Assembly (NCBI GenBank): GCA_026986905.1
Contig: JALSNQ010000012.1
Coordinates: forward strand, 1 to 34,812
Direction: 5' to 3'
From: Thermofilaceae archaeon
GTDB lineage: Archaea; Thermoproteota; Thermoprotei; Thermofilales; Thermofilaceae
DNA length: 34,812 bases
Shown here piece after piece: positions 1 through 19,314 of the stretch (positions are counted from its first letter, which is position 1; each line of letters opens with the position of its first letter). Under the pieces are notes generated by a model, which was not told the DNA's origin, did not search any database, and saw nothing but the letters and a program-made list of their open reading frames with translations. Both the position numbers and the translations under genes were made by a program.

Positions 1-429
1 ATACGGCTTACCGCAAGCCACGAGCACCCTGGGGGAGAAGGCGTCGAGCCCTACCCCCAGGTAGTCCACTAGGCTCCGCGCCTCTTTAAGCTCTTCCGGA
101 CTGACGGGCTGCGTTGCGACTCGTACGCTAAGCCCCCTCTCTCTGAGATACGCTGCAGCCTCCAGTGCTTCACGCCAGTAGTCCGGCTTTATAATAGTCT
201 GTATGCACGCCGCCTTGTATCGGCCCACGAGCTTCTCGAGATCCCTGGCTGATACTCTGGGCCACTCTACGCGGCCGAGCCTCCCAGCCCTGCGGTTGAG
301 CCTCGACAGTACACAGAACTTGCAGCTTGCAGCGCAGAAGCCGTCCTGGAGGAGGTAGAGTATGTGGGGCGGCTCCAGGCTCGGCGGCCCCAGGGAGCCC
401 TGCGATGCCCTGAGCGGAGGGGGGTGCAC
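1..429 (-). CDS. Radical SAM protein, possible LipS1/LipS2-type lipoyl synthase (partial)
   Basis: The 5' part of a gene that runs off the left edge of the window; 143 codons are visible. Near residue 35 it has CAASCKFC, the CxxxCxxC [4Fe-4S] motif of radical SAM enzymes, preceded by the hydrophobic strand ILYLLQDGF. Later segments (IQTIIKPDYW, VATQPVSPEE, YLGVGLDAFSPEVL) fit the alternating beta/alpha pattern of a SAM barrel of the biotin synthase/lipoyl synthase type. I chose the GTG at 429 because the frame carries straight into the motif; it is uncertain. The gene is divergent from a lipoate-protein ligase with only 32 bp between them, so the two may share a promoter region. From family knowledge, archaea with LplA often use the two-component lipoyl synthase LipS1/LipS2 rather than LipA. 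That this is one of those subunits is inference; a biotin synthase-like enzyme of another pathway remains possible. Confidence 0.7.
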   Translation of the reverse strand, partial: MHPPPLRASQGSLGPPSLEPPHILYLLQDGFCAASCKFCVLSRLNRRAGRLGRVEWPRVSARDLEKLVGRYKAACIQTIIKPDYWREALEAAAYLRERGLSVRVATQPVSPEELKEARSLVDYLGVGLDAFSPRVLVACGKPY

Positions 430-434
430 GGTAA

Positions 435-441
435 GATTATA
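435..441 (+). promoter_or_regulatory. Probable TATA box of the lipoate ligase gene
   Basis: The AT-rich element gattata lies about 25 nt before the ATG at 462, the spacing expected for a leaderless archaeal transcript. No Shine-Dalgarno sequence precedes the ATG, which fits. Confidence 0.4.
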
Positions 442-461
442 GGTGCACGCCTTGATATATT

Positions 462-1187
462 ATGGTGTTGAGGCTACGCCTGATATACGACGGCTTCAGG
501 CGCGCCGTATGGAATATGGCGCTCGACGAGGCGCTGCTCAGCTCATGCGTTGAGCGGGGAGAGGCGGCGCTGAGAATATACGGGTTCTCCCCCAGCGCCG
601 TGACCCTCGGCAGGTTCAGGCCCCTCAGCGACGTGGATCTAGACTATGCTTCACGTATAGGCGTGGAGGTGGTCAGACGCCCCACCGGGGGTGGAACAGT
701 CTTCCACGACGAGGCGGGAGAGGTAACCTATAGCCTCGTAGCCCCAGAAGACTGGGTGGGCCCCCCGTTGGAGGCGTATAGGAGGATATGTGGCGGCATA
801 GTAGCCGCTGCCGAGGCATTGGGTGTTGAGGCGGTGTACAAGGCGCCGAACGACGTGCTGGCGCGCGGCGGGAAGTTCTCTGGTAGCGCCCAGCTAAGGA
901 GGGGTGGATGCGTGCTCCAGCACGGCACGTTCATGTATGCTACTAGGCTTGGTCTCGCAAGGAGACTCCTGAGGAAGTGGGGCCGCGTAACAACGCTTGA
1001 GGCTGCCGCTGGGAGGAGGATAGGCTTCTACGCGGCGGCCGCCGCGCTGGTCGAAGGGATAACCGGGAGCCTCGGCGCCGAGGCCTTTAGGGACGGGTTT
1101 AGGCTTGAGGAGATAGAAGCTGCTGGACGCATAGTTGAACGCTACTTCAGGGACGGGTTCTCCATAGTACCGGGGAAACCTGTTTAA
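462..1187 (+). CDS. lplA: Lipoate-protein ligase A family, N-terminal (catalytic) domain
   Basis: Activates lipoate (or octanoate) with ATP and transfers it to the lysine of lipoyl domains. Visible motifs: WNMALDEALL at residues 17-26, RRPTGGGTVFHD at 72-83 (the lipoyl-AMP binding loop of the family), and NDV...GGKFSGSA at 130-142 with the expected catalytic lysine at 138, followed by QHGTF. At 241 aa it matches the catalytic domain only; the C-terminal accessory domain (LplB in Thermoplasma) is not fused and is not seen next door. Archaeal LplA typically needs LplB, so LplB is probably encoded elsewhere, or this protein is a LipM/octanoyltransferase-like variant. It is divergent from the radical SAM gene, which supports a lipoate role for both. 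The ATG at 462 follows a TATA-like element by about 25 nt. Confidence 0.88.
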   Translation: MVLRLRLIYDGFRRAVWNMALDEALLSSCVERGEAALRIYGFSPSAVTLGRFRPLSDVDLDYASRIGVEVVRRPTGGGTVFHDEAGEVTYSLVAPEDWVGPPLEAYRRICGGIVAAAEALGVEAVYKAPNDVLARGGKFSGSAQLRRGGCVLQHGTFMYATRLGLARRLLRKWGRVTTLEAAAGRRIGFYAAAAALVEGITGSLGAEAFRDGFRLEEIEAAGRIVERYFRDGFSIVPGKPV

Positions 1188-1216
1188 CCCGCCGGGCCTC
1201 TCCTAAAGGGGAGAGC

Positions 1217-2557
1217 ATGGCAAGAAGAACCTACGCCGTAATAGGCGGAGGACCTGCCGGCATGACAGCGGCGTCGAGGATCAAGAGGCTCCACCCAGAG
1301 TCCAGGGTTGTGGTCGTCGAGCGGAGCAGGTATGTGAGCTATGCCGCATGCGGGATACCGTACTACCTCGGCGGGCTCGTGGAGAGCCTCGACAAGCTCA
1401 TCCACTACCCGGTCAGCGTTTTTAGGGAGAAGAGGGGGATAGAGGTATACACTGAGACGGAGGCCGTGGCCTTAGAGCCCGGGAGGCTCGTCGCCCGGGG
1501 ACCGGACGGAGAGTTCACAGTGGAGTGGGACATGCTGCTCGTGGCGACCGGCGCCCGCCCAGTTAAGCCCCCGATACCGGGTGTCGAGCTGGATGGGATA
1601 GCCACCCTGCGTATACTGGAGGACGCTGAGAGGGCTAGGCGCCTGCTGGAGGGGGCTAGGCGTGTCGCCGTCGTGGGTGGCGGCTATATAGGCGTCGAGG
1701 TGGCGGAGAACCTCAAGGCGCGGGGGCTTGATGTTGTATTATTCGAGATGCTCCCCCACGTGATGCCGACGCTGGACGGGGACATGGCCTCCCATATAGA
1801 GGAGGAGATGCGGCGCAACGGCGTCGAACTGCACACAGGCGAGCCCGTGAGAGAGTTCGTGGGCGACGGGTCGGGTAGGGTCAGGAGGGTCGTGACCGAC
1901 AAGGGGGTGTACGACGTGGACGCCGTGATACTCGCTGTGGGCGTGAGGCCTGACACCAGGCTTGCCGAGATGCTGGGCCTAGAGCTAGGTGTACGCGGCG
2001 CGGTTAAGGTCGACTCGAGGCTTAGAACCAGCATGGAGGGGGTTTACGCGGCAGGCGACGTGGCGGAGACCTTCAACAGGGTTACCGGGAAGCCGGACTG
2101 GATACCGCTGGCGCCTACGGCGAACAAGATGGGATACGTGGCTGGGACTAACATGGCAGGCGGGGACATAGAGTTCCCCGGCGTCGTGGGAACCGCGGTG
2201 ACGAAGGTCTTCGGCCTGGAGATAGGGAGGACGGGGCTCTCAGAGGAGCAGGCGAGAAAGGCCGGGTTTAACCCCCTGGGCGTCCACATATCGGCGAAGA
2301 CTAGGCCAGGGTATTATCCGGGCGGCGGCGTACTCAGGCTGAAGCTCGTCGCCGACATCGACAGCGGGAGGCTCCTAGGCGTACAGGCCGTGGGCGTCGA
2401 GGTTCTGCCGAGGATAGACGCGGCGGCCGCGCTACTCTACCACGGCGCGAGTGTAAAAGACGTGTTCTTCACGGATCTGGCGTATGCGCCTCCATTTGCG
2501 CCTGCGTGGGACCCCCTCGTGATAGCCGCCAGGGTTGCTATGCGGAGGCTCCGCTAG
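1217..2557 (+). CDS. cdr: CoA-disulfide reductase / NADH oxidase-type flavoprotein
   Basis: A 446-aa FAD-dependent pyridine nucleotide-disulfide oxidoreductase. The N-terminal FAD-binding Rossmann motif is VIGGGPAGMTAAS (residues 8-20). A single redox cysteine sits in SYAACGIPYY (Cys45), the hallmark of the CoADR/Nox subgroup. A second, NAD(P)H-binding, Rossmann motif is VAVVGGGYIGVE near 150, and the second FAD motif is GVYAAGDVAE near 277. The C-terminal dimerisation domain ends with YAPPFAPAWDPL, typical of CoADR. In anaerobic hyperthermophiles such enzymes reduce CoA disulfide, oxygen or elemental sulfur/polysulfide with NAD(P)H, and which of these applies cannot be read from sequence. 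The ATG at 1217 follows a good ribosome site (ggggagagc). It lies 29 bp after lplA on the same strand. Its last 20 bp overlap the convergent gene at 2538-3080. Confidence 0.9.
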   Translation: MARRTYAVIGGGPAGMTAASRIKRLHPESRVVVVERSRYVSYAACGIPYYLGGLVESLDKLIHYPVSVFREKRGIEVYTETEAVALEPGRLVARGPDGEFTVEWDMLLVATGARPVKPPIPGVELDGIATLRILEDAERARRLLEGARRVAVVGGGYIGVEVAENLKARGLDVVLFEMLPHVMPTLDGDMASHIEEEMRRNGVELHTGEPVREFVGDGSGRVRRVVTDKGVYDVDAVILAVGVRPDTRLAEMLGLELGVRGAVKVDSRLRTSMEGVYAAGDVAETFNRVTGKPDWIPLAPTANKMGYVAGTNMAGGDIEFPGVVGTAVTKVFGLEIGRTGLSEEQARKAGFNPLGVHISAKTRPGYYPGGGVLRLKLVADIDSGRLLGVQAVGVEVLPRIDAAAALLYHGASVKDVFFTDLAYAPPFAPAWDPLVIAARVAMRRLR

Positions 2558-3080
2558 GCCTCCCCCTTTTTCTTCTGTCCACGTAGAGGCCCTTCTCGTT
2601 CATGTAGACGTGTACGCCGACGGAGGCCGCTGCTAGGCCAACTATCGCCGCGGCCGCGCTGGCTATGCTGAGCGTGGCAGTGTACGCCGGGTCGAAGGTG
2701 GTATAGTATAGCCTCACCTCGACTCCCCGGCATTCGGTGCAGTTAGCCACGGCGTAGCTGGGCCTGTGGTCTAGCAGCACGCTACCCTTCTCTACGCCGC
2801 CCATCTTCAGGGTCTTCCCGCCAACGCTCCTGCCCTCTCCGTCGTAGAAGGTTAGGGTTATGTTTCCACTCCTACCCGTGGAGTTTATGAAGTAGTACAC
2901 CCTCTCGTGGCTGCCCTCTATGGCTAGGCGCAGCGTGCCCGTCGGCCCCAGCGTGCCCGAGGCTCCCGTGCTCGGCGCCATGAGGCTTAGAGAGTAGAAG
3001 CTTAGCAGGAAGCCTACCATGAGGAGGGTGAAGCCGGTAAAAAGCGCTATCTTTGCCCTCCTGAGCCTGCCGCTAGACAT
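2538..3080 (-). CDS. Two-helix membrane protein with extracytoplasmic domain, last gene of the importer operon
   Basis: A 180-aa protein I do not recognise. Residues about 11-34 form a membrane helix, followed by a polar, beta-rich, probably extracytoplasmic segment (about 35-130) with possible N-glycosylation sequons (NST, NIT, NCT) and two cysteines four apart (NCTECRG). A second helix lies at about 132-155, and the tail is basic (RRKRGRPSG). The ATG at 3080 overlaps the end of the preceding ATPase gene by 8 bp, so it is probably translationally coupled and belongs to the ABC importer operon. A role in anchoring or assisting the transporter is inference only. Its 3' end overlaps cdr convergently by 20 bp, which places any terminator inside cdr. 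Confidence 0.75.
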   Translation of the reverse strand: MSSGRLRRAKIALFTGFTLLMVGFLLSFYSLSLMAPSTGASGTLGPTGTLRLAIEGSHERVYYFINSTGRSGNITLTFYDGEGRSVGGKTLKMGGVEKGSVLLDHRPSYAVANCTECRGVEVRLYYTTFDPAYTATLSIASAAAAIVGLAAASVGVHVYMNEKGLYVDRRKRGRPSGASA

Positions 3081-4056
3081 AGAGCCAACACTTTACGAAG
3101 TGATTGTGCTCGACCTCTATCTCCGGGGGCTCCTCCTTCCTGCACCTCTCCATTACCCGGCTGCAGCGGGGAGCGAAGCGGCAGCCCGGCGGCGGGTTTA
3201 TGAGACCTGGGGGCTCGCCCGGCGGTACCTCGCGGAACCTCTTCCTGTTCTCCGGGTCCGGGTCTGGTATGGCTGCCAGCAGGGCCTTAGTGTAGGGGTG
3301 GAGCGGGTTCCTTATGACCCTCTGGGTGGGGCCGCGCTCCACTATGTGGCCGGCGTACATTATGTAGATCCACTCGCTGAAGTACCTCGTGGTCGAGAGG
3401 TCGTGGGTGATGTAGATGAAGGTGATGTTCCTCCTCTGCTGCATCTCTCTCATGAGGTTCAGTATCTCCACCCTGACGGAGGCGTCGAGCATGGAGACAG
3501 GTTCGTCCGCGACGACGAGGCTGGGGCCGAGTATCAGGGCCCTAGCTATAGCGACCCTCTGCAGCTGGCCGCCGCTGAGCATGTGGGGGTACTTTGGCGC
3601 AAAGTCCTCGACCGGCGTGAGCCTGACCTCTTCAAGAGCCCGGTAGATCATCTCCTCGCGCTCCTTCTTGTCGCCCACCTTGTGGACTATGAGGGGCTCC
3701 TCGAGGATCCTATATATGGTCATGAAGCTAGGCATGGCGCCGAAGGGATCCTGCTGCACCAGCGCCGTCTCGCGGCGGTACCACATCATCTTCTTCTTAT
3801 CCTTGAGGTGCGTCACGTCCTCTCCCTTGAAGATTATCTGGCCGTCAGTGGGCTCGTGCAGGAGCAGCACAGTCTTGCCGAGAGTGGTCTTCCCGCTACC
3901 CGACTCTCCGACGAGGCTCACGGCCTCGCCCGGCCTAAGGGCGAAGCTCACGCCGTCTACCGCCTTTAGCCAGAGGGGCTTCGAGAAGAAGCCCCTCCTG
4001 ACCTCGAACCACTTCCTGAGGTTCTTAACCTCCAACAGGTACCCGTCGCTCGACAC
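3073..4056 (-). CDS. Oligopeptide/dipeptide-type ABC importer ATPase (OppF/DppF-like), importer 1
   Basis: One of the two nucleotide-binding subunits of importer 1. Counting from an alternative GTG at 4065, the Walker A is GESGSGKT at 53-60, the signature is LSGGQ at 163-167, the Walker B is LVVADE at 183-188 and the switch histidine is 221 (ITHDLS). The C-terminal extension is the oligopeptide/dipeptide (oligo_HPY) type, with [11 protein letters not shown] plus two further cysteines (ERC, VKCWLYV). This four-cysteine set is associated with an Fe-S cluster in some OppD/DppD proteins. The Walker B region reads ADEPVSMLDAS, slightly unlike the usual [10 protein letters not shown] prefer the GTG at 4056, which has GAGGTG 6 nt upstream; GTG at 4065 overlaps that site. 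The gene starts 10 nt after the OppD-like gene. Confidence 0.92.
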   Translation of the reverse strand: MSSDGYLLEVKNLRKWFEVRRGFFSKPLWLKAVDGVSFALRPGEAVSLVGESGSGKTTLGKTVLLLHEPTDGQIIFKGEDVTHLKDKKKMMWYRRETALVQQDPFGAMPSFMTIYRILEEPLIVHKVGDKKEREEMIYRALEEVRLTPVEDFAPKYPHMLSGGQLQRVAIARALILGPSLVVADEPVSMLDASVRVEILNLMREMQQRRNITFIYITHDLSTTRYFSEWIYIMYAGHIVERGPTQRVIRNPLHPYTKALLAAIPDPDPENRKRFREVPPGEPPGLINPPPGCRFAPRCSRVMERCRKEEPPEIEVEHNHFVKCWLYV

Positions 4057-5033: not shown

Positions 5034-6464
5034 TTACATCTCCCTGAGCCTCGGGTTCACTATCTTGTCCAGGGCGAACCCGAGCATGGCGAACGCGAGG
5101 GCTGTGACTATCAGCATGAATGAGGGCTCGAGTATCCAGTAGTAGTAGCCCTTGTAGAGGGCGCCGTTGTTGTAGGCGTCGTTTATTATCTTGCCCCACG
5201 TCGGCAGGTAGGGGTCCCCGAGGCCGAGGAGGCTGAGCGCGGCTTCGAGGAAGACGAAGCCGGGCACCGATCCTATGAGGCCGGGCACGAGCGGCGGCAG
5301 GATCTTAGGTATGATGTAGAACGTTATTATCCTCGCGTCGCTTGCGCCATAGGCCTTGGCGGCCTCCACGTACGGGTACTCCTTTATCTGCATCACCAGC
5401 GCCCTCGTGCTCTTGATCCCGGCGCCGAAGATGCTGAGCACAATGACGACGGCGAGTATGGTCCATATGTCGAGCTTGTAGAATGCGGCCATCATGATGA
5501 GGAATGGGAGGAAGGGTATGATCATGTAGATCTCCGTTATCCTCTGGATAATGCTGTCTATTATCCCGGCGTACCAGCCGCTTATAGTGGCTATGAAGAG
5601 CTGTATAATGGAGATGGCGAGGCTCGCTGTGAGGCCGAAGGCTATAGCGACCGGCGTTCCCCAGAGGAGAGCTATAATTAGCGGCCTCCTCAGGTGATCC
5701 GTACCGGCTATGCCGTACACGGTGCCATAGACTACGAGCTTAAGGTCTACGTCGTCCCCCTTGTTGTAGGTCGTCGCGTCAACGACGAGCTTGTAGGCGC
5801 CCTTCTCCACGTCCACCTTCCCCTGGGCCATGGCCGGCGTTATCTTGCCGAAGAGTATCTGCTGCGTCGTGACCGTCTTGTAGGGGGTTATTCCCTTCTC
5901 CTTCTGGAGCCACATGACGAGGTTATTGTAAATCTGCTGGTCGACCGAGACGTAGAGTATCTGGTTGGGGTCGCGCATGGTCATCTCCGTGACAGGTATC
6001 CTTGTCCCGTCGGGCTTTATCCAGTATATCTTCACGAGCGGAGTGTTCTTGCTCGCGTTGAACTTTGCCCTGAAGAATATGTTCACCTCGCTGGGAAAGT
6101 CGTCGTAGGGGTAGTTGAAGCTCATCTCTATGTGTATCTTCTTGATGCTCGTCCCGGGAAGCGGCGCCTCGGCCTTCACTATGCCGAAGCTCTTCTCCCA
6201 GCTCGCCACTTTAAACGTCTTGGGCAGGTTCTTGTGGACGAAGAAGGCCATCCACTCCGGCGCCGCGTTCCTCGGGTTCTCTATCCACATGTTGTTCTCC
6301 CCCCTCCACATGGCTATGGCCTTCTGGGGCGGGATCGTGACGACGGTGTAGACGCTGAGGCCTATCAGAAGCGCCAGTATCACTATGCTAGCTATACCCG
6401 ACTTGTATGAGAGCAGTTCCCTGAGTATTCCTTTAAGGCTGTACTCCATCCCAACTTCGCTCAC
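5034..6464 (-). CDS. DppC/OppC-like ABC permease with a large extracytoplasmic insertion, importer 1
   Basis: A membrane permease subunit of importer 1. One helix (about residues 25-47) is followed by roughly 200 mostly polar, beta-rich residues, then the family motif GTDHLRRPLIIALLWGTPVA and five further helices. The cytoplasmic coupling motif is EAAKAYGASDARIITFYIIP. The C-terminal half contains LEAALSLLGLGDPYLPTWG, diagnostic for DppC. Ordinary DppC proteins are about 300 aa; this one is about 476, and the excess is the loop between helix 1 and the GTD motif (about residues 50-255). The usual GTDxxGRD reads GTDHLRR. I chose the GTG at 6464, which has GAGGTG 6 nt upstream; GTG 6473 and ATG 6449 are alternatives. 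The gene follows the DppB-like gene by 12 nt. Confidence 0.9.
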   Translation of the reverse strand: MSEVGMEYSLKGILRELLSYKSGIASIVILALLIGLSVYTVVTIPPQKAIAMWRGENNMWIENPRNAAPEWMAFFVHKNLPKTFKVASWEKSFGIVKAEAPLPGTSIKKIHIEMSFNYPYDDFPSEVNIFFRAKFNASKNTPLVKIYWIKPDGTRIPVTEMTMRDPNQILYVSVDQQIYNNLVMWLQKEKGITPYKTVTTQQILFGKITPAMAQGKVDVEKGAYKLVVDATTYNKGDDVDLKLVVYGTVYGIAGTDHLRRPLIIALLWGTPVAIAFGLTASLAISIIQLFIATISGWYAGIIDSIIQRITEIYMIIPFLPFLIMMAAFYKLDIWTILAVVIVLSIFGAGIKSTRALVMQIKEYPYVEAAKAYGASDARIITFYIIPKILPPLVPGLIGSVPGFVFLEAALSLLGLGDPYLPTWGKIINDAYNNGALYKGYYYWILEPSFMLIVTALAFAMLGFALDKIVNPRLREM

Positions 6465-6476
6465 ACATACCACCTC

Positions 6477-7654: not shown

Positions 7655-10318
7655 TTAGCTCTTCTTAAAGGCCTTCGCAAGGGCTATGGCGGCGAGTATT
7701 ATGCCTATTATGCCGAGTATCATCGCGATGTTCACGTTGCCCTTGACGGCGTTGATCTCGCCCTCGAGCGTGCTCACCTTGCTGTTAAGCTGGGTGATGC
7801 CGTTCTCGAGGCTGCCCAGCTTGGCCTGCAGGCTGGACTGTATCTGCGCCACCTGGCCCTTGATGTAGGCCATCTGGCTGGTCACGGTGAAGGGCTGCTC
7901 CGCCTGGGACGGCACTATGGCCTCCTTGCTGACGGCGAGGACGAGCAGCTTGTAGCTGCCCGTGCCGAAGTTTATGGTCGTGCTGGCCGGGAGCTCTATC
8001 TTCCACTTGCCGTCCGCGACCGCCTTAGCCTCGCCCTTGGCGACTATCTGGCCCGCGCTGTCGAAGACCAGGTACTTGACGAACCACATCTTGTCCATCG
8101 GGTAGGGCTTGCCCTTGTAGGTCACGGAGAGGTCGAAGTCCGCCTTGAGGCCCGATATGACCACGTCAGGCGCCTTTATCGACACCTCCGGCACCATGGG
8201 CTCCACGAAGCCGGCGAAGCGGTCGGCCTTGTCGATGAACTGCCTGAATGCCTTTATGACCGCCTGGTGGGCGTTGTAGTCGACCTTGTCGAGGTAGAAG
8301 GGCCCGTCGCCTACCCAGAAGTGGCCGTGCGCCTTGAACCAGTTCTCAAGGTTCTGGTACCTCTGCTTCACCTCGTCGACGGTTATGTACTTGCCGAGGA
8401 AGCCCTTGAAGGGTATGTAGCCCTCGGCCTTGGCCTCGTCGAGCATCTGCTTGAGCACGGGTATGCTCGGGCCGCCTATGTAGTTCATCCACTCAACCTT
8501 CAGCTTGTCCGCCTTGTCGGCGCTGAAGGCGAGCTTGTGCTCCGCGTCAGCCTTTATGCCTATGGCCATCATCTCGAGCGGGTGCGCCGGGTAACCAGCG
8601 GCCCAGTCGGCTATGAACTCGGCCTCCAGGTTGATATAGTTGATGTAGTACTCGATTATCAGCGGGTGCACGCTGACTATCTTCCAAGCCACGAAGTTCT
8701 TCCTCCAGGACTGGAACGGGCCTACAGCAGCCTCGTCGTAAAGCCCGCTCTTCGGGTTGACCCTGGCGAAGGTGAGCGGGAAGCCGACGAGCCAGTCGGC
8801 GAGCGTCATCGTGGTGCCGTCGTGGAACTTGACCTTGCCTATGACGTCGCCGTAGTTTACGACGACCTTGACCTTGGCCTCGGTCACGTTGGCCTCGCCG
8901 GCGGTGATTATCTTGTCGTTAACTGGGTCGTATGCGTACCAGGCGTCGCTGGGCACGGTTATCTTGTCTACGAAGTTGAGGTCGAGCCAGTCGCTGCTCT
9001 TAGTTATGAGCGTAGAGTAGTTGCTGAGCACGTAGACTGTGGCGTGGAGCATCCTGTCGGGCACGGGGAGGCCGTTGTACGGGTTGGGCAGGGTCGCGAA
9101 GTCCCTAGTAGCCTGGTAAACGACGGTGTCGTATACCCAGTCGCTGCCCGCGACAGGGTTCCACGGGTCTACGAGAACCTCGCTGTTGCCGGCCTTAATG
9201 GTTCCGCCCACCTTGCCAGTGAACCTGATAGTCCTGCTCCACATGTTTGTGGCGAAGCCACCGCTGAGATCGCTGGCCACCTCTACGCCCTTCCTGAGTA
9301 GGAAGGGTGCCTTCTGGTTTACGAGCCATACCCTCACTGAGTCCTGAAGGGCCATGATGAGGGCTTTTGTCATGAGCTGGTTCCTCTCCTCTATGCTGTT
9401 GAACTTGTTCTCATAGAGCTTCTTGGCCACCTCGTAGAACTGGGGGCTCGGCTTGTAGGCCTGCCAGAGCGGCAGTGGTATGCCGAGCGGGGTGTAGAAG
9501 AAGGCAAAGTTGCCTGCGTCGTCCCTGCTGATGGCCGTCTGTATCCAGCCGCCGGTGTAGAGCGTCCACTTCCCGTCGGCCGGGTTGCCGAAGAGCCAGA
9601 GCGGGCTCGCCTGCCTGCTGGTCTTGTACATGCGGTCGACTGTGAAGCCGAGCTTCTCGAGCTGGCTGGCGATGTAGTCGCCTATCTCCTTCCTCTTGTC
9701 CTCCGTCCTGATGATGAAGTGGATCACCACGGGCTTGCCCTTGTAGTACCACTTACCGTTCTTGTACTCGGCGCCGAGCTTCATCATCTCCTTGAAGATT
9801 ATCTCCTTGCCCTTCTCGAAGTTGTACTTGTACTTTATCTCGAGGCTCTTTATGACGTCGATGAACCTAGCGTAGTCGACTGAGGCGTAGGTTATGGGGA
9901 CGTACATTGGGGCTGCGAGGCCCTGCATTATCTCATTAGCGATGTAGTTCCTGTCGATGATGTAGTTCATGGCCTCCCTTATCTTGGGGTCGAAGAACGG
10001 GTTGAACTCGCCGTTCTTGAAGACGGGGCCTACGGGGTTGAATGTTAGCTCGTAGTAGAGGCCGTAGGCGAACTTGTAGTTGATGTTGGGGTCGGCCTTT
10101 GCCTTCTGGAATATCTGCGGGTCGCTGACGTCTATGAAGTAGAGGTGCATGTCGCCTTTGCTGAGCATGTCGACCGCCTTCGCCCTGTCCTTCTCAGCGA
10201 AGAAGACTACCTCGTCCACCCATGGGCCGTTGGGCGCGTTGGGCTGCGCGAAGGCTAGTGGCGCCACGATTGACGCCACAAGTAGCGCTATCACTAGAAC
10301 TGCAAGCTTGGTTTTCAT
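7655..10318 (-). CDS. ABC importer solute-binding protein, family 5, apparently circularly permuted and C-terminally membrane-anchored (importer 1)
   Basis: An 887-aa secreted binding protein. The signal peptide is about residues 1-24 (cleavage near AFAQP). The mature chain begins with WVDEVVFFAEKDRA...LSKGDM (33-56), then FFDPKIREAMNYIIDR (108-123), IASQLEKLGF (216-225), YTGGWI (254-259) and SPQFYEVAKKLYEN...IEERNQLMTKAL (291-320). In DppA/OppA these are the middle and C-terminal parts. Only then come GGTIKAGN (371-378), DPWNPVAGSDWVYD (384-397), VKFHDGTTMTLADWL (496-510) and VGDGPFYL (669-676), the usual N-terminal half in order. The order is therefore a circular permutation. Residues about 710-813 form a beta (Ig-like) domain, about 815-860 a heptad-type coiled coil, and 864-882 a membrane helix with a KAFKKS tail. 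The ligand is unknown; peptides or oligosaccharides are both bound by this family. The TATA box at 10343-10352 gives a nearly leaderless start at 10318. Confidence 0.88.
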   Translation of the reverse strand: MKTKLAVLVIALLVASIVAPLAFAQPNAPNGPWVDEVVFFAEKDRAKAVDMLSKGDMHLYFIDVSDPQIFQKAKADPNINYKFAYGLYYELTFNPVGPVFKNGEFNPFFDPKIREAMNYIIDRNYIANEIMQGLAAPMYVPITYASVDYARFIDVIKSLEIKYKYNFEKGKEIIFKEMMKLGAEYKNGKWYYKGKPVVIHFIIRTEDKRKEIGDYIASQLEKLGFTVDRMYKTSRQASPLWLFGNPADGKWTLYTGGWIQTAISRDDAGNFAFFYTPLGIPLPLWQAYKPSPQFYEVAKKLYENKFNSIEERNQLMTKALIMALQDSVRVWLVNQKAPFLLRKGVEVASDLSGGFATNMWSRTIRFTGKVGGTIKAGNSEVLVDPWNPVAGSDWVYDTVVYQATRDFATLPNPYNGLPVPDRMLHATVYVLSNYSTLITKSSDWLDLNFVDKITVPSDAWYAYDPVNDKIITAGEANVTEAKVKVVVNYGDVIGKVKFHDGTTMTLADWLVGFPLTFARVNPKSGLYDEAAVGPFQSWRKNFVAWKIVSVHPLIIEYYINYINLEAEFIADWAAGYPAHPLEMMAIGIKADAEHKLAFSADKADKLKVEWMNYIGGPSIPVLKQMLDEAKAEGYIPFKGFLGKYITVDEVKQRYQNLENWFKAHGHFWVGDGPFYLDKVDYNAHQAVIKAFRQFIDKADRFAGFVEPMVPEVSIKAPDVVISGLKADFDLSVTYKGKPYPMDKMWFVKYLVFDSAGQIVAKGEAKAVADGKWKIELPASTTINFGTGSYKLLVLAVSKEAIVPSQAEQPFTVTSQMAYIKGQVAQIQSSLQAKLGSLENGITQLNSKVSTLEGEINAVKGNVNIAMILGIIGIILAAIALAKAFKKS

Positions 10319-12537: not shown

Positions 12538-13248
12538 ATGTCCCGCGAGGTGTGTGTGGTGAAGGTTTTGGGCTCCCTCTATGGTAGACGCGATAAGGTT
12601 GAGAAATGGGCTAGGAGGAACGGGGCCAGGGTTCTCCTAGCCCCGCTGCGTCTCATAGAGTATGGATCCGAGCCCGGCGAGAGGCGTGGGCTCTTCGACG
12701 AGGCGGCGTTCTACGTGGAGAAGCCCGAGAACCTGGCCTTTACGGTTAGGAACGCGTTCTTGAAGAAAAAGGTCGTTGAAGCCGAGCCCTGGCTTGGCAC
12801 GATCCTCGAGGGGTCTGAGAGAAGCAACAAGGATCTTATAGGGCTTTACGCGAGGATGGTCAGCGAGGTTAGGCGCGAGCTTTCAGGCCTCTACATGGCG
12901 AAGGTGGAGCACGCGAGGGCCACGGCGAAGAGCATGGCCGCGCAGATGTTCTTCGGGGCTAGGCGCATAAACCCCGGCCTAGAGGAGGCCGCCGCTAGGG
13001 CCTCCGCGCTGGAATTCCTGCTAAGCCTCTTCGAGAAGGAGCTCGGGTTCTCGTCGGAGCCCAGCTACGTGTCGGAGGATGTGGAGAGGATATACATGCC
13101 CATAGCCGTCGTCGAGAGCGGCGGCGTGGTGATATACGAGCTTGTAGATAAGCCCCGCAAGAGCGGTGTGCTCAACGCACTTTACAGCAGGGATCCAGGA
13201 TATAGGAAGTGGATTAGAAAAAACGCTGGTTTGAACTCCTACGAGTAG
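12538..13248 (+). CDS. Unrecognised soluble archaeal protein
   Basis: A 236-aa protein I cannot place in a family. It has no signal peptide or membrane helix. It is rich in Arg, Lys and Glu, with an N-terminal short beta strand ([12 protein letters not shown]) and a long central helical region of about residues 95-170 ([13 protein letters not shown]...[18 protein letters not shown]). A beta hairpin follows ([17 protein letters not shown]) and the C-terminus is basic. A tattcc-ATG with no ribosome site and an AT-rich element about 25 nt upstream suggest a leaderless start. It overlaps the end of the convergent importer 2 ATPase gene by 10 bp. The composition is like its neighbours, so there is no sign of recent transfer. 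Confidence 0.65.
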
Positions 13249-14210
13249 AGGTGGCAGGCAACCCAGTGGTTCTTCTCAACCTCTATGAGAGGCGGCTCCT
13301 CCACCTTACACCTGTCCATGGCCTTGAAGCAGCGGGGAGCGAAGCGGCAGCCCGGCGGCGGGTTTATGGGGGAAGGCACCTCCCCCCTGAGTATTATCCT
13401 CTTCTTCATCCTCTTCGCCTCCACGTCGGGCTCCGGTATGGCGCTCAGCAGGGCCTGCGTGTACGGGTGGAGGGGCTTCTCGAAGAGCTCCTGCGCGTCG
13501 GCAAGCTCCACTATTTTGCCTAGGTACATGACGGCTATGCGGTCGCTCATGTACTTGACGGTCGCTATGTCGTGGCTTATGTAGAGGTATGTCAGGCCCA
13601 TCTCCCTCTGCAGGTCTTTGAGCATGTTGAGTATCTGCGCCTGGACTGAGACGTCGAGGGCGCTCGTGGGCTCGTCGAGTACGATGAACTCCGGCTGGAG
13701 CGCCAGGGCTCTGGCTATGGCTATGCGCTGCCTCTGGCCTCCGCTGAACTCGTGGGGGTAGCGGTAGAGGTGTTCTCTCTTAAGCCCCACCTTCTCTAGA
13801 AGGCCTACGACGTATTCCTCCGGGTTGTCGATGTCGAAGTACTTCCTGTGAACCTGGATTGGTTCATATACTATGTCGAAGACCATCATCCTCGGGTCCA
13901 GGGACGAGTACGGGTCCTGGAACACTATCTGGGCCCTCCTCCTAAACTCGAGGAGGTCGCCGCCCCTAAGCTTGAAGATGTCCTTTCCGTCGAAGAGCAC
14001 GGTTCCGGAGGTAGGCTTTATGAGGGCCAGCATTAGCCTGCCCAGCGTGGTCTTGCCACAGCCGGACTCACCCACCAGGCCTAGCGTCTCGCCCTTACTT
14101 ATGGTCAGGTTTACACCGTCGACTGCGTGCACGTAGCCAAGGGTTCTGAAGAGCTTCCTCACAGGGAACAGCTTCCTAAGATTCCTCGTCTCCACAAGCG
14201 GCTTACTCAT
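13239..14210 (-). CDS. Oligopeptide/dipeptide-type ABC importer ATPase (OppF/DppF-like), importer 2
   Basis: Last gene of importer 2. It has Walker [11 protein letters not shown]-loop [15 protein letters not shown], signature FSGGQRQR, Walker [15 protein letters not shown] and switch ISHDIATV. The C-terminal domain has [15 protein letters not shown] and VACHLYS, the four-cysteine pattern. The frame is open back to 14246, but the ATG at 14210 fits better. It overlaps the preceding stop as ATGAGTAA with ggtggtggag just before it, and the protein then begins [17 protein letters not shown] as in the family. It pairs with the OppD-like subunit encoded just upstream. Confidence 0.93.
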
Positions 14211-15201
14211 CTCCACCACCCACCTTGTCGTAGAGGTGGCAGGCAACCCAGTGCCCTGGCGCCACCTCCTTCATTACGGGCTTCTCCCTCCTGCAGATGG
14301 GCATGGCCTTGTCGCAGCGCGGGTGGAAGCGGCAGCCCGGCGGCGGGTAGATAAGGTTTGGCACGAAGCCGGGTATAGGCTTCAAGACCACGTCCTTCCC
14401 GGCGGTTATCCTGGGCACCGCGGCCAGTAGCCCCTTCACGTAGGGGTGTAGTGGGTTCTTGAAGAGCTCCTCGGTCGGCGCCAGCTCAACTATATTGCCC
14501 GCGTACATCACGGCCACGCGGTCGCACATCTCCGCCACTAGGCCTAGGTTGTGGGTTACGAGTATCAGCGTGAGGTTCCTCTCCTCCCTAAGCTTGTTGA
14601 GGAGATCCATAATCTGGGCCTGTATCGTGACGTCCACCGCCGTGGTCGGCTCGTCGGCTATGAGGAGCTCAGTCTCACCCGACAGGGCGGTCGCTATCAC
14701 CACACGCTGCTTCATCCCCCCGCTCAACTCGTGGGGGTAGGCCCTTGCACGCTCCTCGGGTTCGGGCATCATGACCTGCTTGAAAAGTTCAACCACTCTC
14801 CTCCAGGCATCCTTGAAGCTCCCGACTAGGCCGTGGTAGACCATCGGCTCAGCTACCTGGTAGCCGACCCTGTAGAGGGGGTCGAGGGCCGCGCTCGGCT
14901 CCTGCACGATGTAGGCTATCTTGTTCCCCCTGATCTTCCTCATCTCGCTCTCAGGCAGCTCTAGAAGGTTTACCCCGTTAAACCATATCTTTCCCCTAAC
15001 TATCTCCCCGGGAGGCGGTATTAGGCGCAGCACTGAGCGCATGGTCACAGACTTTCCGCAGCCCGTCTCCCCGACGAGGCCTAGGCATTCCCCGCGTCTC
15101 ACCTCCAGGTTTACGCCGTCGATAGCCTTCACTACCCCCGCATAGGTGTAGAAGTTTACGTAGAGGTCCTCTATCTTGAGGATTATATCATCGTTCACCA
15201 C
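14203..15201 (-). CDS. Oligopeptide/dipeptide-type ABC importer ATPase (OppD/DppD-like), importer 2
   Basis: A 332-aa nucleotide-binding subunit with Walker [10 protein letters not shown]-loop [14 protein letters not shown], signature LSGGMKQR, Walker [14 protein letters not shown] and switch VTHNLGLV (N replaces the more usual D after H). The C-terminal extension has [15 protein letters not shown] and VACHLYD. The GTG at 15201 overlaps the upstream TAG by one base and follows ggagggtgg; a second GTG one codon on is equally possible. Its terminal HWVACHLY codons are identical in DNA to those of its partner ATPase gene over about 24 nt, probably old duplication or conversion. Confidence 0.92.
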
Positions 15202-16211
15202 TACTCACCACCCTCCTTGCCGCTCTTACCCGACTTCTCCTTGAATTCGAGCTTCCTCCTATACTTGGGGTCGAACACGTCTCTAAGCCCGTCGCCCAGC
15301 AGGTTAAAGCCGAGGGCGATAAGGAACAGTATGAAGCCGGGTATCAGGGAATACCACCACTTCTCTGGGAGGTACTGTAGACCGTCGTAGACTAGCCTGC
15401 CCAGCTCCGGCGTCGGCGGCTGGGCGCCGAGCCCTATGAAGCTGAGGCCTGCGCCGAGTAGTATGACGCCCGCCATGTCAAGGGTCGCGAAGATTATGAG
15501 CGGAGTGAAGACGTGGGGCAGCACGTGCTTCAGGATTATCTTTATGTCCCTCATTCCCACTGCGCGGGCCGCCTCGACGAACTGGTTCTCCTTTATCGAG
15601 AGGGTCTGGCCCCGTATGAGGCGGACGTAGCCCGGCCACCATACCACTATCATCGCGATCATCGCGCTCTGGAGCCCGGCTCCCAGGCTGGCCGCCAGCG
15701 CCATCGCGAGCACGAGCGCCGGGAAGGCCAGGAACATGTCTGTGACCCTGGATATCAGCTCGTCCACCGCGCCGCCGTAGTAGCCCGCTATGAGGCCCAG
15801 AACAACCCCTATGGGTATGCCGGCCGCGAGCACGACGACGGAGTAGGAGAGGGATATCTGGGTGCCCAGGAGCACTCTTGCGAAGAGGTCCCTACCGTAC
15901 TCGTCGGTGCCGAACCAGTGCTTCCAGGAGGGGGGCTGGAGCACGTCGTAGGAGTACTGGAACGCGTTGAAGCTGGGCATCGAGGACACGACCGCCTGGT
16001 GGTAAAGGAAGGCGACGAAGGCCTTTATGCCGTCTAGAAGCAGTGGGCCGAGTACCCCGATTATAACGAAGACGACCACCATTATTAGCCCTGCAACGGA
16101 GACGGCGGAGCGCCGGAAGGCGTAGAGCATGAGGCCGTACTCCTTTATCTTGGACTCGTTCCTTGTGCGCCACTTCTGGTAGCGCTCCCCTATGAAGGAC
16201 GGCAGCCTCAT
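15201..16211 (-). CDS. DppC/OppC-like ABC permease, importer 2
   Basis: A 336-aa permease of normal family length. The N-terminal cytoplasmic segment is basic (about 1-30). Helix 1 is VAGLIMVVVFVIIGVLGPLL, and the diagnostic motif is FGTDEYGRDLFARVLLGTQISL. Five more helices follow, with coupling motif FVEAARAVGMRDIKIILKHVLP and the DppC signature GLSFIGLGAQPPTPELGRLV. The tail is highly charged (EFKEKSGKSGKEGGE). The start is an ATGA overlap with the stop of the DppB-like gene, so the two permeases are translationally coupled. It differs from the importer 1 homologue in lacking that protein's roughly 200-residue insertion. Confidence 0.94.
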   Translation of the reverse strand: MRLPSFIGERYQKWRTRNESKIKEYGLMLYAFRRSAVSVAGLIMVVVFVIIGVLGPLLLDGIKAFVAFLYHQAVVSSMPSFNAFQYSYDVLQPPSWKHWFGTDEYGRDLFARVLLGTQISLSYSVVVLAAGIPIGVVLGLIAGYYGGAVDELISRVTDMFLAFPALVLAMALAASLGAGLQSAMIAMIVVWWPGYVRLIRGQTLSIKENQFVEAARAVGMRDIKIILKHVLPHVFTPLIIFATLDMAGVILLGAGLSFIGLGAQPPTPELGRLVYDGLQYLPEKWWYSLIPGFILFLIALGFNLLGDGLRDVFDPKYRRKLEFKEKSGKSGKEGGE

Positions 16212-17215
16212 GTTAGCCTCACCCTCGGATCAACGTAGGCGTACAGGAGGTCGACCACGAAGTTGACTATCAGGTAGACGAGGCCTATCAGGAAGGTGCC
16301 GGCCATTATGACCGGGTAGTCCATGGCGTAGGTTGAGACCACCAGGTAGCGGCCGAGGCCTGCTATGGCGAATATCGTCTCCGTGATTATTGCGCCCCCG
16401 AGGAGGCCGCCGAACTGCAGGCCCGCAACCGTGATGATCGGTATTATAGCGTTCTTCAAGGCGTGCTTAACCATTATCACCCTCTCGGGGAGCCCCTTCA
16501 TGCGGCAGTAGTCTATGAAGTCGGCGCTGAGCGTGTCGAGAAGGCTCCCCCTCATCAGCCTGGCGATGACCGCGGCGCCGGGCGTGGCGAGCGAGATGCT
16601 GGGCAGGAGGAAGTGGAGGAAATTGTCGACGAACGCGCCCCAGTCGCCGCATAGAATGCTGTCGAAGAGGTACATGCCGGTGTAGACGACCCTGGGCTTG
16701 CGGCCCAGTCCGAATCCGGGTAGCCAGCCGAGCCAGTAATAGAATATCATCTGGAAGGCTATGGCTAGTAGGAAGTAGGGCACGGAGTAGCCTATCACCG
16801 ATAGCACGCGTATGGCCTGGTCGAGCTTCGTGTTGTTCCTCATAGCGGCCGCTATGCCGAGGGGGATCCCCGCGACCAGGATGAAGAACTCGCCCAGGAT
16901 GGCCAGCTGGAAGGTGACAGGGAAGTATATTGAAAGCTCCTTGAGTATAGGCCTGCTCGTCACTATAGACGTCCCCCAGTTGCCCGTGAAGAGGTCGCAT
17001 ATGTAGAGCCAGAGCTGGATGTACCACGGCTGGTCTAGGTGGTACATCTTCTTGATCAATGCGAGGGTCTGCGGGTTCATGTGCCTGGCGAAGGCGCCCT
17101 TAGCGGGCAATGCTGGGACAAGGTGGGATATAATGAAGGTTATAACTATCACGCCCAGCAGGGTCGGCACAAACGTGAGCAGGCGCCGGGCGATGTAGTA
17201 CTTAAAATCCCCCAT
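16208..17215 (-). CDS. DppB/OppB-like ABC permease, importer 2
   Basis: A 335-aa permease with the classic DppB start YYIARRLLTFVPTLLGVIVITFIISHLVP. It also has the extracytoplasmic HLDQPWYIQLWLYICDLFTGNWG and the coupling motif FIDYCRMKGLPERVIMVKHALKN. The end of the core is ETIFAIAGLGRYLV, and the C-terminus YAYVDPRVRLT is family-typical. Six helices are predictable. The ATG at 17215 follows tttttatat closely, with little room for a leader, so it may be translated from a read-through transcript of the binding-protein gene 62 bp upstream. Confidence 0.94.
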   Translation of the reverse strand: MGDFKYYIARRLLTFVPTLLGVIVITFIISHLVPALPAKGAFARHMNPQTLALIKKMYHLDQPWYIQLWLYICDLFTGNWGTSIVTSRPILKELSIYFPVTFQLAILGEFFILVAGIPLGIAAAMRNNTKLDQAIRVLSVIGYSVPYFLLAIAFQMIFYYWLGWLPGFGLGRKPRVVYTGMYLFDSILCGDWGAFVDNFLHFLLPSISLATPGAAVIARLMRGSLLDTLSADFIDYCRMKGLPERVIMVKHALKNAIIPIITVAGLQFGGLLGGAIITETIFAIAGLGRYLVVSTYAMDYPVIMAGTFLIGLVYLIVNFVVDLLYAYVDPRVRLT

Positions 17216-17277: not shown

Positions 17278-19314
17278 TTAGGGCGCAGGCCCTACGAGCA
17301 GCTTCACGCCGGCCATCTCGATGGGCTTAGCGTTCGCTACGGCGAGGCCCGCAACCTTGACCGTGGCGAAGTGCCAGCCGCCCTGCATGAGCGGGTAGGC
17401 GTAGTCGTCGGGGTCTGCGTAGTCTGGCGCCCAGCCGAGTATGGCCACGTCGTAGTCGCCGTTTGTGATCTTCTTAAGGTATGTTGGCCAGCTGAAGGTC
17501 TGGACCTTCACCTTGAAGCCTAGCTTCTGCCACTCGTTCTGGAGCAGCGTCGCAATCATCTCTCTGGGCTTGTTGCCCTGGTTGTAGATTATGGTTATAG
17601 TGTACTTGGTCGGGTCTATGCCGCTCTTCTTGAGCAGCTCCTTGGCCTTAGCTATCCTCTGCTCCTCGCTCATGGTCTTCCAGTAGTCCAGCGGCACGTT
17701 GTCTGTATAGCCGAGCATGCCCTTCGGGATCACACCCGATACGGGCATGAGGTGGCCCCTGTAGACCTGCTTGATTATGAACTCGAAGGGCGTCGCGTAG
17801 GCGAGGGCCTGCCTCACGTAGAGGTTGTTGAAGGGCTCCTTCTTGTTGTTCAGATAGATGTGCGTTATGTCGAAGGTGCCGCCCATCCACGGCATGAGGA
17901 ACTTCCACGTCTTCCCGTTGTACTGGAGCGTCTTGCCCTCCATCTTGTCCTCGCTCTGCGGCGAGACGACGCCGTAGTCGAGGTCGCCCTTCTGGAGGGC
18001 AAGTATCCTCGACTCCTCCTCGGGTATTATCTTGATAACCCACTTCTTGATTGTGGGCTTGGGCTCACCCCAGTAGTACGGGTTCACCTCGTAGACGAGC
18101 TCCTGGTTGTGCGTCCAGCTGACAAGGTAGTAGGGGCCGGTGCCGACAGGGTGCTCGTTGTACCACTTGAGCGCAAGCGGATCCTTGGTGCTGTTGTGCA
18201 GCGCCACGGCCTTCTCGCTTACTATGCTGCCGACGTTGGTGGCGAGGCAGCTCATGATGGCCAGGTACGGCCTCTTAAGCTCTATCACGACGTAGCCGGC
18301 TATCTCGGTCTTAGCCTTGTGCCACGGCACGTAGCTGAACTTTTCCTTGAAGAGGTTTATCCACTGGTCCATGCTGTTTATAGTATACTCCTTGCCCAGG
18401 ATCGGGGCCACGAGGCCCTCCTTCAACGCGGCCTCCATGTCCTTCTCGCTTATCACGTAGGCCTTCTTCACGAAGTCGCTGATTATCCACTCAGGGTAGT
18501 CCACCTTCTCGTAGTTGGCGGACTCTATAATCCTGTTAATACTGTAGGCTACGTCCTCGGGCGTCATGTCGAACGTCTTCTTGTCCCACGGGTCGTAGAA
18601 GACGAGGCCCTTCCTTATGGCGAAGTAGAGCTTGGTTCCATCCTTGCTCATAGCCCACGCATACGCGGCCTCGGGGACAACGTTCTTCGAGTCGTTGCCG
18701 TAGTAGAAGACGAGCCTGTTGTACAGCTGTATACCGGCGCCCCAGCCGGCGGTCTCATAGGTCTGTGCAGGGTCCAGGCTCTCGGGCTCACCTATGTCTC
18801 CGACGTCCACCTCGTTAGGCCTGGGGGCGTTGGGATCCTTCGTTACGAACTGCCACTGGTTGTCGGCCAGAACCGGGTTGAAGAACGGGAAGTGCATCCA
18901 GCTCCAGTAGTGCCTCCTAGCCTTCGCCTGGCCAAGCCATATCATGGGAACCTCGTAGTTCGAGATCGCCTGGATAACGTTGTATAGCTTCTCCCTGATG
19001 ACGGGGTTGGTCTCGTACTTCGCAGCCTGCAGGAGCGCGTCTACGCTCTTATTGCTGAAGAAGGCGGGGTTTATGTTAGAGAAGCCTACTAGCTTCTCGG
19101 GTGGCGGCGTGGCGCCGCTGTAGCTCACCACTATGTCTGGCTTGTACTCCTTAACCTGGACTACGGTCTGGGTCTGGTTCCTGTACACGACCTTCGTCTG
19201 GTTCCTATAGACTACTTGTGTCTTGATCTTGGGTGGAGCGAAAACGTAGCCGGCCGCGAAGCCCACTAAGAGGCCTACTATCAGGAGTACTGCGGCCATA
19301 GTTTTTGCGTCCAT
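17278..19314 (-). CDS. ABC importer solute-binding protein, family 5, apparently circularly permuted with an N-terminal membrane anchor (importer 2)
   Basis: A 678-aa protein. Residues 6-27 are an uncleaved-looking helix (MAAVLLIVGLLVGFAAGYVF), followed by a linker with a duplicated VVYRNQT (34-40, 42-48). Next comes NKSVDALLQAAKYETNPVIR...YNVIQAISNYEVPMIW (about 87-126), which in DppA/OppA is the C-terminal helical region. The usual N-terminus follows: GDIGEPESLDP (172-182), LYNRLVFYYG (197-206), FAIRKGLVFYD (231-241), MTPEDVAYSINR (250-261), then VGTGPYYLVSW (390-400) and NPYYWGEPKP (411-420). After these come ALQKGDLDYG (439-448), LYVRQALAYAT (498-508) and DYDVAILGWAPDYADPDDYA (620-639). 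The chain stops soon after, where the C-terminal region would be expected. Anchored outside the cell, it delivers ligand to the permeases downstream. The TATA-like element at 19343-19351 supports the ATG at 19314. Confidence 0.9.
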   Translation of the reverse strand: MDAKTMAAVLLIVGLLVGFAAGYVFAPPKIKTQVVYRNQTKVVYRNQTQTVVQVKEYKPDIVVSYSGATPPPEKLVGFSNINPAFFSNKSVDALLQAAKYETNPVIREKLYNVIQAISNYEVPMIWLGQAKARRHYWSWMHFPFFNPVLADNQWQFVTKDPNAPRPNEVDVGDIGEPESLDPAQTYETAGWGAGIQLYNRLVFYYGNDSKNVVPEAAYAWAMSKDGTKLYFAIRKGLVFYDPWDKKTFDMTPEDVAYSINRIIESANYEKVDYPEWIISDFVKKAYVISEKDMEAALKEGLVAPILGKEYTINSMDQWINLFKEKFSYVPWHKAKTEIAGYVVIELKRPYLAIMSCLATNVGSIVSEKAVALHNSTKDPLALKWYNEHPVGTGPYYLVSWTHNQELVYEVNPYYWGEPKPTIKKWVIKIIPEEESRILALQKGDLDYGVVSPQSEDKMEGKTLQYNGKTWKFLMPWMGGTFDITHIYLNNKKEPFNNLYVRQALAYATPFEFIIKQVYRGHLMPVSGVIPKGMLGYTDNVPLDYWKTMSEEQRIAKAKELLKKSGIDPTKYTITIIYNQGNKPREMIATLLQNEWQKLGFKVKVQTFSWPTYLKKITNGDYDVAILGWAPDYADPDDYAYPLMQGGWHFATVKVAGLAVANAKPIEMAGVKLLVGPAP
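19171..19215 (-). repeat. Short coding tandem repeat (VVYRNQT twice) in the binding protein 2 linker
   Basis: The membrane-proximal linker repeats seven residues, VVYRNQT, with one residue between the copies. Each copy holds an N-glycosylation sequon (NQT). It looks like a small in-frame duplication that lengthens a glycosylated stalk. Confidence 0.6.

Follow-up and report, generated by a model that had tools for sequence, protein, structure and literature searches.

The binding protein of importer 2, encoded in a window of 34,812 nucleotides from a Thermofilaceae archaeon (contig JALSNQ010000012.1), is very probably a real, functional-looking family 5 (cluster C, DppA/OppA-like) binding protein whose chain has been circularly permuted, with a history of ring openings of the kind proposed below. 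We refer to the canonical N-terminal, middle and C-terminal parts of a family 5 protein as N, M and C; their canonical order is N-M-C, and the importer 2 protein carries them behind an anchor as C-N-M (Table 1). The open reading frame is intact and begins with ATG. The sole Pfam match of the product is to PF00496 (SBP_bac_5), at residues 211-645 (E 8.9e-74; 249 bits against a cut-off of 32.4). The N-M-C order canonical for PF00496 is absent, and because its ring order is profile positions 431-506 followed by 4-424, we file the protein as a permuted variant of SBP_bac_5 and not as an ordinary member.

Table 1. Features of importer 2 and importer 1 in the window (position 1 is the first nucleotide of the window).
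Feature	Position	Strand	Description and basis
Binding protein of importer 2	17278..19314	(-)	678 aa, anchor - C - N - M order (C-N-M permutant)
N-terminal hydrophobic anchor, residues 1-25	19240..19314	(-)	Hydropathy 2.46 at 7-25; model helix 3-25
Low-confidence linker, residues 26-59	19138..19239	(-)	pLDDT below 50 at 21-56
Head, residues 60-83	19066..19137	(-)	Distal part of inserted M/C loop; heads aligned with M-C-N inserts
C segment, residues 84-159	18838..19065	(-)	Canonical C-terminal helical end, profile 431-506; profile mapping
N segment, residues 160-416	18067..18837	(-)	Canonical N-terminal part; segment searches, profile mapping
M segment, residues 417-646	17377..18066	(-)	GWAPDYADPDDYAYP motif at its end; segment searches, profile mapping
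Tail, residues 647-678 and stop	17278..17376	(-)	Proximal part of inserted M/C loop, ends LLVGPAP; insert alignment
Permease 1 of importer 2	16208..17215	(-)	PF00528 E 1.8e-42; synteny
Permease 2 of importer 2	15201..16211	(-)	PF00528 E 2.9e-34; synteny
ATPase 1 of importer 2	14203..15201	(-)	Sequence, synteny
ATPase 2 of importer 2	13239..14246	(-)	Sequence, synteny
Importer 1 binding protein	7655..10318	(-)	887 aa, M-C-N permutant; hhalign, hydropathy, relatives

Comparison of the importer 2 protein with DppA from the PDB (5f1q) by phmmer returned three pieces in rotated order, with residues 175-271 matching DppA 37-135, residues 342-640 matching 163-445, and residues 89-128 matching 465-504, the last of these insignificant taken alone. 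Against a canonical profile of 507 positions made from 77 N-M-C proteins including E. coli DppA, residues 84-159 map to positions 431-506 and residues 160-646 to positions 4-424, so that the whole ring is covered once, in its cyclic order and with new ends. The earlier note on this DNA had placed the C-terminal helical segment on the N-terminal side of the protein; that placement stands, while the extent 84-159 describes the segment better than the 90-126 given there. The native protein scores 361.0 bits against the profile, over positions 4-424. With residues 60-165 relocated to the end, the score rises to 388.2 bits if the tail is kept and to 399.7 bits if it is removed, over positions 6-506; 200 controls with a shuffled moved segment reached at most 360.9 bits, and relocation of other 106-aa segments gave no more than 274 bits. 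Simple rotation of the whole protein brings no gain, because the anchor and the tail intervene. The proposal that undoing the permutation would raise score and coverage thus holds for the 77-protein profile; DppA alone does not discriminate, being an underpowered comparison in which the Smith-Waterman score moved from 382 to 388 and the shuffled maximum was also 388. Iterated segment profiles confirmed the C-N-M order and detected segment C at E about 5e-25.

Residues 60-165 might instead be an extra helical domain with no more than a resemblance to segment C, and the pairwise insignificance of the likeness to the DppA C-terminus fits such a domain. The profile E-values for segment C argue against it, as do the M-C-N relatives, whose homologous segment lies between M and N. 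A second C segment was sought at the C-terminus of the importer 2 protein, where 62 bp separate its stop from the permease gene, and none was present; the ring begins at position 431, ends at 424 and is covered once, leaving no second copy. Nor was a relative seen that carries both an importer 2-type segment and a canonical C-terminal segment. We consider an added domain extremely unlikely.

Importer 2 has the two permease and two ATPase genes of a dpp/opp operon beside its binding protein gene, and the same permuted order is common to L004 (90% identity), L005 (63-66%), L006-L009 (40-43%) and many further loci. Searches by phmmer with the protein's own segments gave C-N-M in L004-L009, M-C-N in L010-L012, and M and N in that order in L013-L016; segment C of the last group is too weak for phmmer, and iterated profiles place it between M and N. 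In the canonical N-M-C loci L018, L020, L022, L027, L028 and L030, segment C of importer 2 matches the C-terminus directly. Most C-N-M loci with flanking sequence show the order binding protein, permease, permease, ATPase, ATPase, the exceptions being L036, where permeases and ATPases are divergent, and L040, where none were found alongside. Named carriers include Thermoprotei, Pyrodictiaceae, Acidilobaceae, Staphylothermus and Sulfolobales metagenome-assembled genomes (MAGs). A junction profile detected the full C-to-N junction at E <= 2e-79 in 38 of 398 Thermoproteota genomes (source genome counted), and five more of the 398 span the junction at 1e-25 to 1e-30.

These relatives also bear on the idea that a poor MAG yielded the C-N-M order through misassembly or the joining of gene fragments. 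The source genome has 25 contigs at 57% completeness and most relatives are metagenome-assembled, as this idea would have it; however, many genomes from several families have the order together with conserved operon neighbours, one of them a single-contig, 99% complete genome (G010, L009). Since relatives at 40-90% identity in syntenic dpp/opp operons are permuted alike, the order is not an assembly artefact, a reading we regard as next to impossible.

The C-N-M and M-C-N proteins appear to have a common origin. In a 'quick' tree with some long branches, for which segment alignments were re-set to canonical order beforehand, the 44 C-N-M and M-C-N rows form one clade with SH-aLRT support of 100. 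The linker from C to N can be aligned between the two forms and is nearly alike in L041 (C-N-M) and L048 (M-C-N). The M-C-N proteins L010-L016 and L046-L048, with further loci, have the same C-to-N junction, M/C insert and N-terminal anchor as importer 2, but their new ends fall at the N/M boundary (profile position about 213), whereas those of importer 2 lie inside the M/C insert. This insert is about 70-85 aa long in M-C-N proteins versus about 11 in canonical proteins such as L018. The importer 2 tail resembles its first half and residues 60-83 its second half, and the loop is uncut in the M-C-N relatives. The M-C-N locus L015 lies in an open reading frame of 1161 aa (214-3699, minus strand) in which the part before the binding protein resembles another enzyme; it may be a fusion or read-through from a neighbour.

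A second C-N-M group (Acidilobaceae, Pyrodictiaceae and Desulfurococcales) has its cut closer to the start of the M/C insert by about 16 residues, with the VVVGP strand in the head and not in the tail. With test groups named after the tree was seen, an AU test rejected a single grouping of every C-N-M protein in the clade (p=1.5e-8). This result and the different cuts in one insert indicate that the clade probably acquired the C-N-M order on more than one occasion, with erosion of the ends complicating the exact reading of the cuts. In L247 and L309 the M/C insert is present and the ring is opened near position 260. The most likely history is one C-to-N fusion in an ancestor followed by different openings. 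The ancestral C end would have been joined to the beginning of N, as could happen if an in-frame tandem duplicate was later trimmed; the clade would then have re-opened the ring at different points, always keeping an N-terminal anchor, and the importer 2-type C-N-M proteins would have opened within the M/C insert of about 70-85 aa.

Importer 1 is also permuted and is cut elsewhere than importer 2, as the earlier note had it. Profile-profile comparison (hhalign) aligned residues 29-378 of its binding protein with canonical positions 228-551 (Prob 99.6) and residues 366-731 with 3-261 (Prob 63, E 7e-5), giving the order M-C-N; its N part was missed by the segment profiles and found by hhalign. 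The importer 1 protein and its relatives match family 5 as importer 2 does, but differ from it in a very divergent N part, the lack of the M/C insert, and a C-terminal coiled coil and TM; the importer 1 protein also has an N-terminal hydrophobic segment. The view that the two importers record two independent permutations is not sustained, since a tree uniting the importer 1 family with the importer 2 clade was not rejected (AU p=0.36, on groups likewise named once the tree was known). The importer 1 M-C-N proteins form a separate, widespread and divergent Thermoproteota family of about 850-900 aa. Permease 2 of importer 1 (5034-6473, minus strand) is long, at 479 aa, with roughly 200 additional aa placed after its first hydrophobic stretch and before the usual permease region.

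Recurrent permutation of family 5 proteins in archaea is well supported by further architectures. L175-L178 have profile positions 262-506 followed by 6-276, or near these, and the Methanomassiliicoccaceae proteins L065 and L108 have 343-506 followed by 4-345 and 346-506 followed by 8-339, respectively; a single clade of L175-L178 with L065 and L108 was rejected by the AU test at p=8e-61. L226 (1081-2802, minus strand) reads 70-507 then 11-65 and L234 (11-1732, plus strand) reads 68-507 then 10-65, both with a twin-arginine-like N-terminus; here roughly the first 55-60 profile positions are relocated to the C-terminus, a separate permutation. Ring cut points seen lie at about 66, 213, 265, 345 and 430, and a minimum-change estimate over the tree rows, with L226 and L234 as permutants and L247 outside the tree, gives seven architecture changes. 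A junction-spanning match was found in 8 of 243 genomes of the Methanomassiliicoccus phylum. None was found at E <= 1e-15 in 150 Pseudomonadota genomes with this archaeal profile, which may be less sensitive in bacteria, and the bacterial loci retrieved are all canonical. We think it rather probable that the archaeal family 5 proteins are a permutation hot spot, with separate origins on the order of five or more, no fewer than five cut points and an already permuted ring that was opened anew repeatedly, the N-terminal end being kept for export or anchoring.

A young case is L174 (530-2539, minus strand; G289), a C-N-M protein known from one MAG, with positions 429-506 followed by 6-435. L218-L220 are N-M-C at 74-79% identity to it (70-79% for L218-L221), so that a mere 21% or so of divergence separates L174 from an unpermuted relative with matching operon context. 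Relative to L218 (G230), segment C has been placed after the anchor linker, with the cut at 'WQGY / KNPxVD'; the anchor regions align at 32 of 60 identical residues and the neighbours are syntenic on both sides. General models of permutation are permutation by duplication and fission-fusion (PMC3320104). The order in L174 could stem from a duplication that then lost two pieces (anchor-[N-M]-C-N-M-[C]), or segment C may have been moved directly; no duplication/deletion intermediate was seen for this permutation, so either mechanism is inferential.

The earlier note also suggested that permutation moved the anchor to the N-terminus. A hydrophobic segment lies within the first 75 residues in 29/29 C-N-M, 18/20 M-C-N and 6/6 M2-C-N-M1 proteins, and likewise in 71 of the 79 N-M-C relatives. 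As canonical and permuted forms are alike anchored at the N-terminus, the anchor stayed in place when the chain was permuted, and the difference lies in which part of the fold comes after it. Class III signal peptides have been described in archaeal binding proteins, as has their assembly into bindosomes (PMC4371748, PMC2910488). The class III (pilin-like) motif [DERK][GA][ALIFQMVED][ILMVTAS] before the hydrophobic stretch occurs in 13/29 C-N-M and 14/20 M-C-N proteins by a custom regular expression run without a shuffled control, and is absent from the importer 2 protein.

Permutation as an adaptation to membrane anchoring, an idea of the earlier note and of Brautigam et al. for TpMglB-2, would account for permutants among anchored archaeal proteins and none in the 150 Pseudomonadota genomes, for the N-terminal anchor retained in C-N-M, M-C-N and M2-C-N-M1 forms, and for the class III motif in many of these proteins. 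However, canonical archaeal relatives are anchored alike and remain unpermuted, importer 2 lacks the motif, the motif counts are uncontrolled, and the survey of anchored proteins did not take in Gram-positive lipoproteins; we hold the adaptive reading only tentatively and find it rather doubtful. There is about an even chance that permutation recurs by neutral drift, the N and C ends being close in the fold, tandem duplicates common and permutation tolerated without selection. The several cut points over the ring and the cutting of one inserted loop at two different places are consistent with drift, which by itself does not explain long conservation within clades or the apparent archaeal enrichment (the survey profile being archaeal).

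An AlphaFold2 model of the importer 2 protein from 15 sequences (pLDDT 77, pTM 0.74) has helices at residues 3-25, 89-100 and 104-121 and low confidence at residues 75-83 and in the tail. Its best PDB match by Foldseek is DppA (1dpe; E 1.6e-25, TM 0.50/0.66), by an order-dependent aligner that is blind to the packing of the moved segment. The prediction and the match both point to a bilobed fold, in which we infer that the moved segment packs as in canonical proteins. Like DppA/OppA-type family 5 proteins (PF00496, cluster C), the importer 2 protein has the homologous whole ring, two permeases and two ATPases, and an equivalent of DppA D436, a residue mutated in PDB 8z1z, which aligns with D631 and is invariant in the C-N-M alignment A1. 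It differs from them in its C-N-M order, its N-terminal membrane anchor, and the loss of conservation at R383, also mutated in 8z1z; the ligand may therefore differ from dipeptide. The dipeptide-binding DppA equivalog NF043070 was considered and rejected, the protein scoring 145 bits against a curated cut-off of 1005. The protein probably folds as an ordinary bilobed binding protein, binds a peptide or other amine-bearing ligand between its lobes, and delivers it to the adjacent permeases; from its residues, that ligand would bear an amine, as peptides do, and its C-terminal contact would differ from that in DppA.

A literature search, with subscription papers outside its reach, turned up no paper describing circular permutation in family 5 binding proteins. 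TpMglB-2 (Tp0684) of Treponema pallidum is a naturally permuted, membrane-tethered cluster B glucose-binding protein, described as 'Type Ic / Cluster Bc', which was shown still to bind its ligand and close despite the permutation and for which the authors suggested tethering as a reason (PMC4990184). The importer 2 protein shares with it permutation, membrane tethering and membership of an ABC importer. TpMglB-2 is a bacterial sugar binder of cluster B with one topology, whereas the importer 2 clade belongs to cluster C, is archaeal and has several cut points. Membership in Type Ic / Cluster Bc was rejected for importer 2 on its Pfam assignment and on its PDB matches, which are dipeptide, oligopeptide and nickel binders.

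Natural permutation in transport binding proteins was earlier represented by one class with a single described topology, that of TpMglB-2; the present findings extend it to another large class and to different cut points. Annotation and domain-order tools misread permuted family 5 proteins, and the Pfam middle-domain model hides the rearrangement. The comparison of L174 with L218-L220 offers a young case in which the mechanism and cost of permutation are directly testable. If the archaeal family 5 proteins are indeed a hot spot, their lineage would show, as an experiment set up by nature, how a two-lobed binding protein responds to changes in attachment point and chain order.
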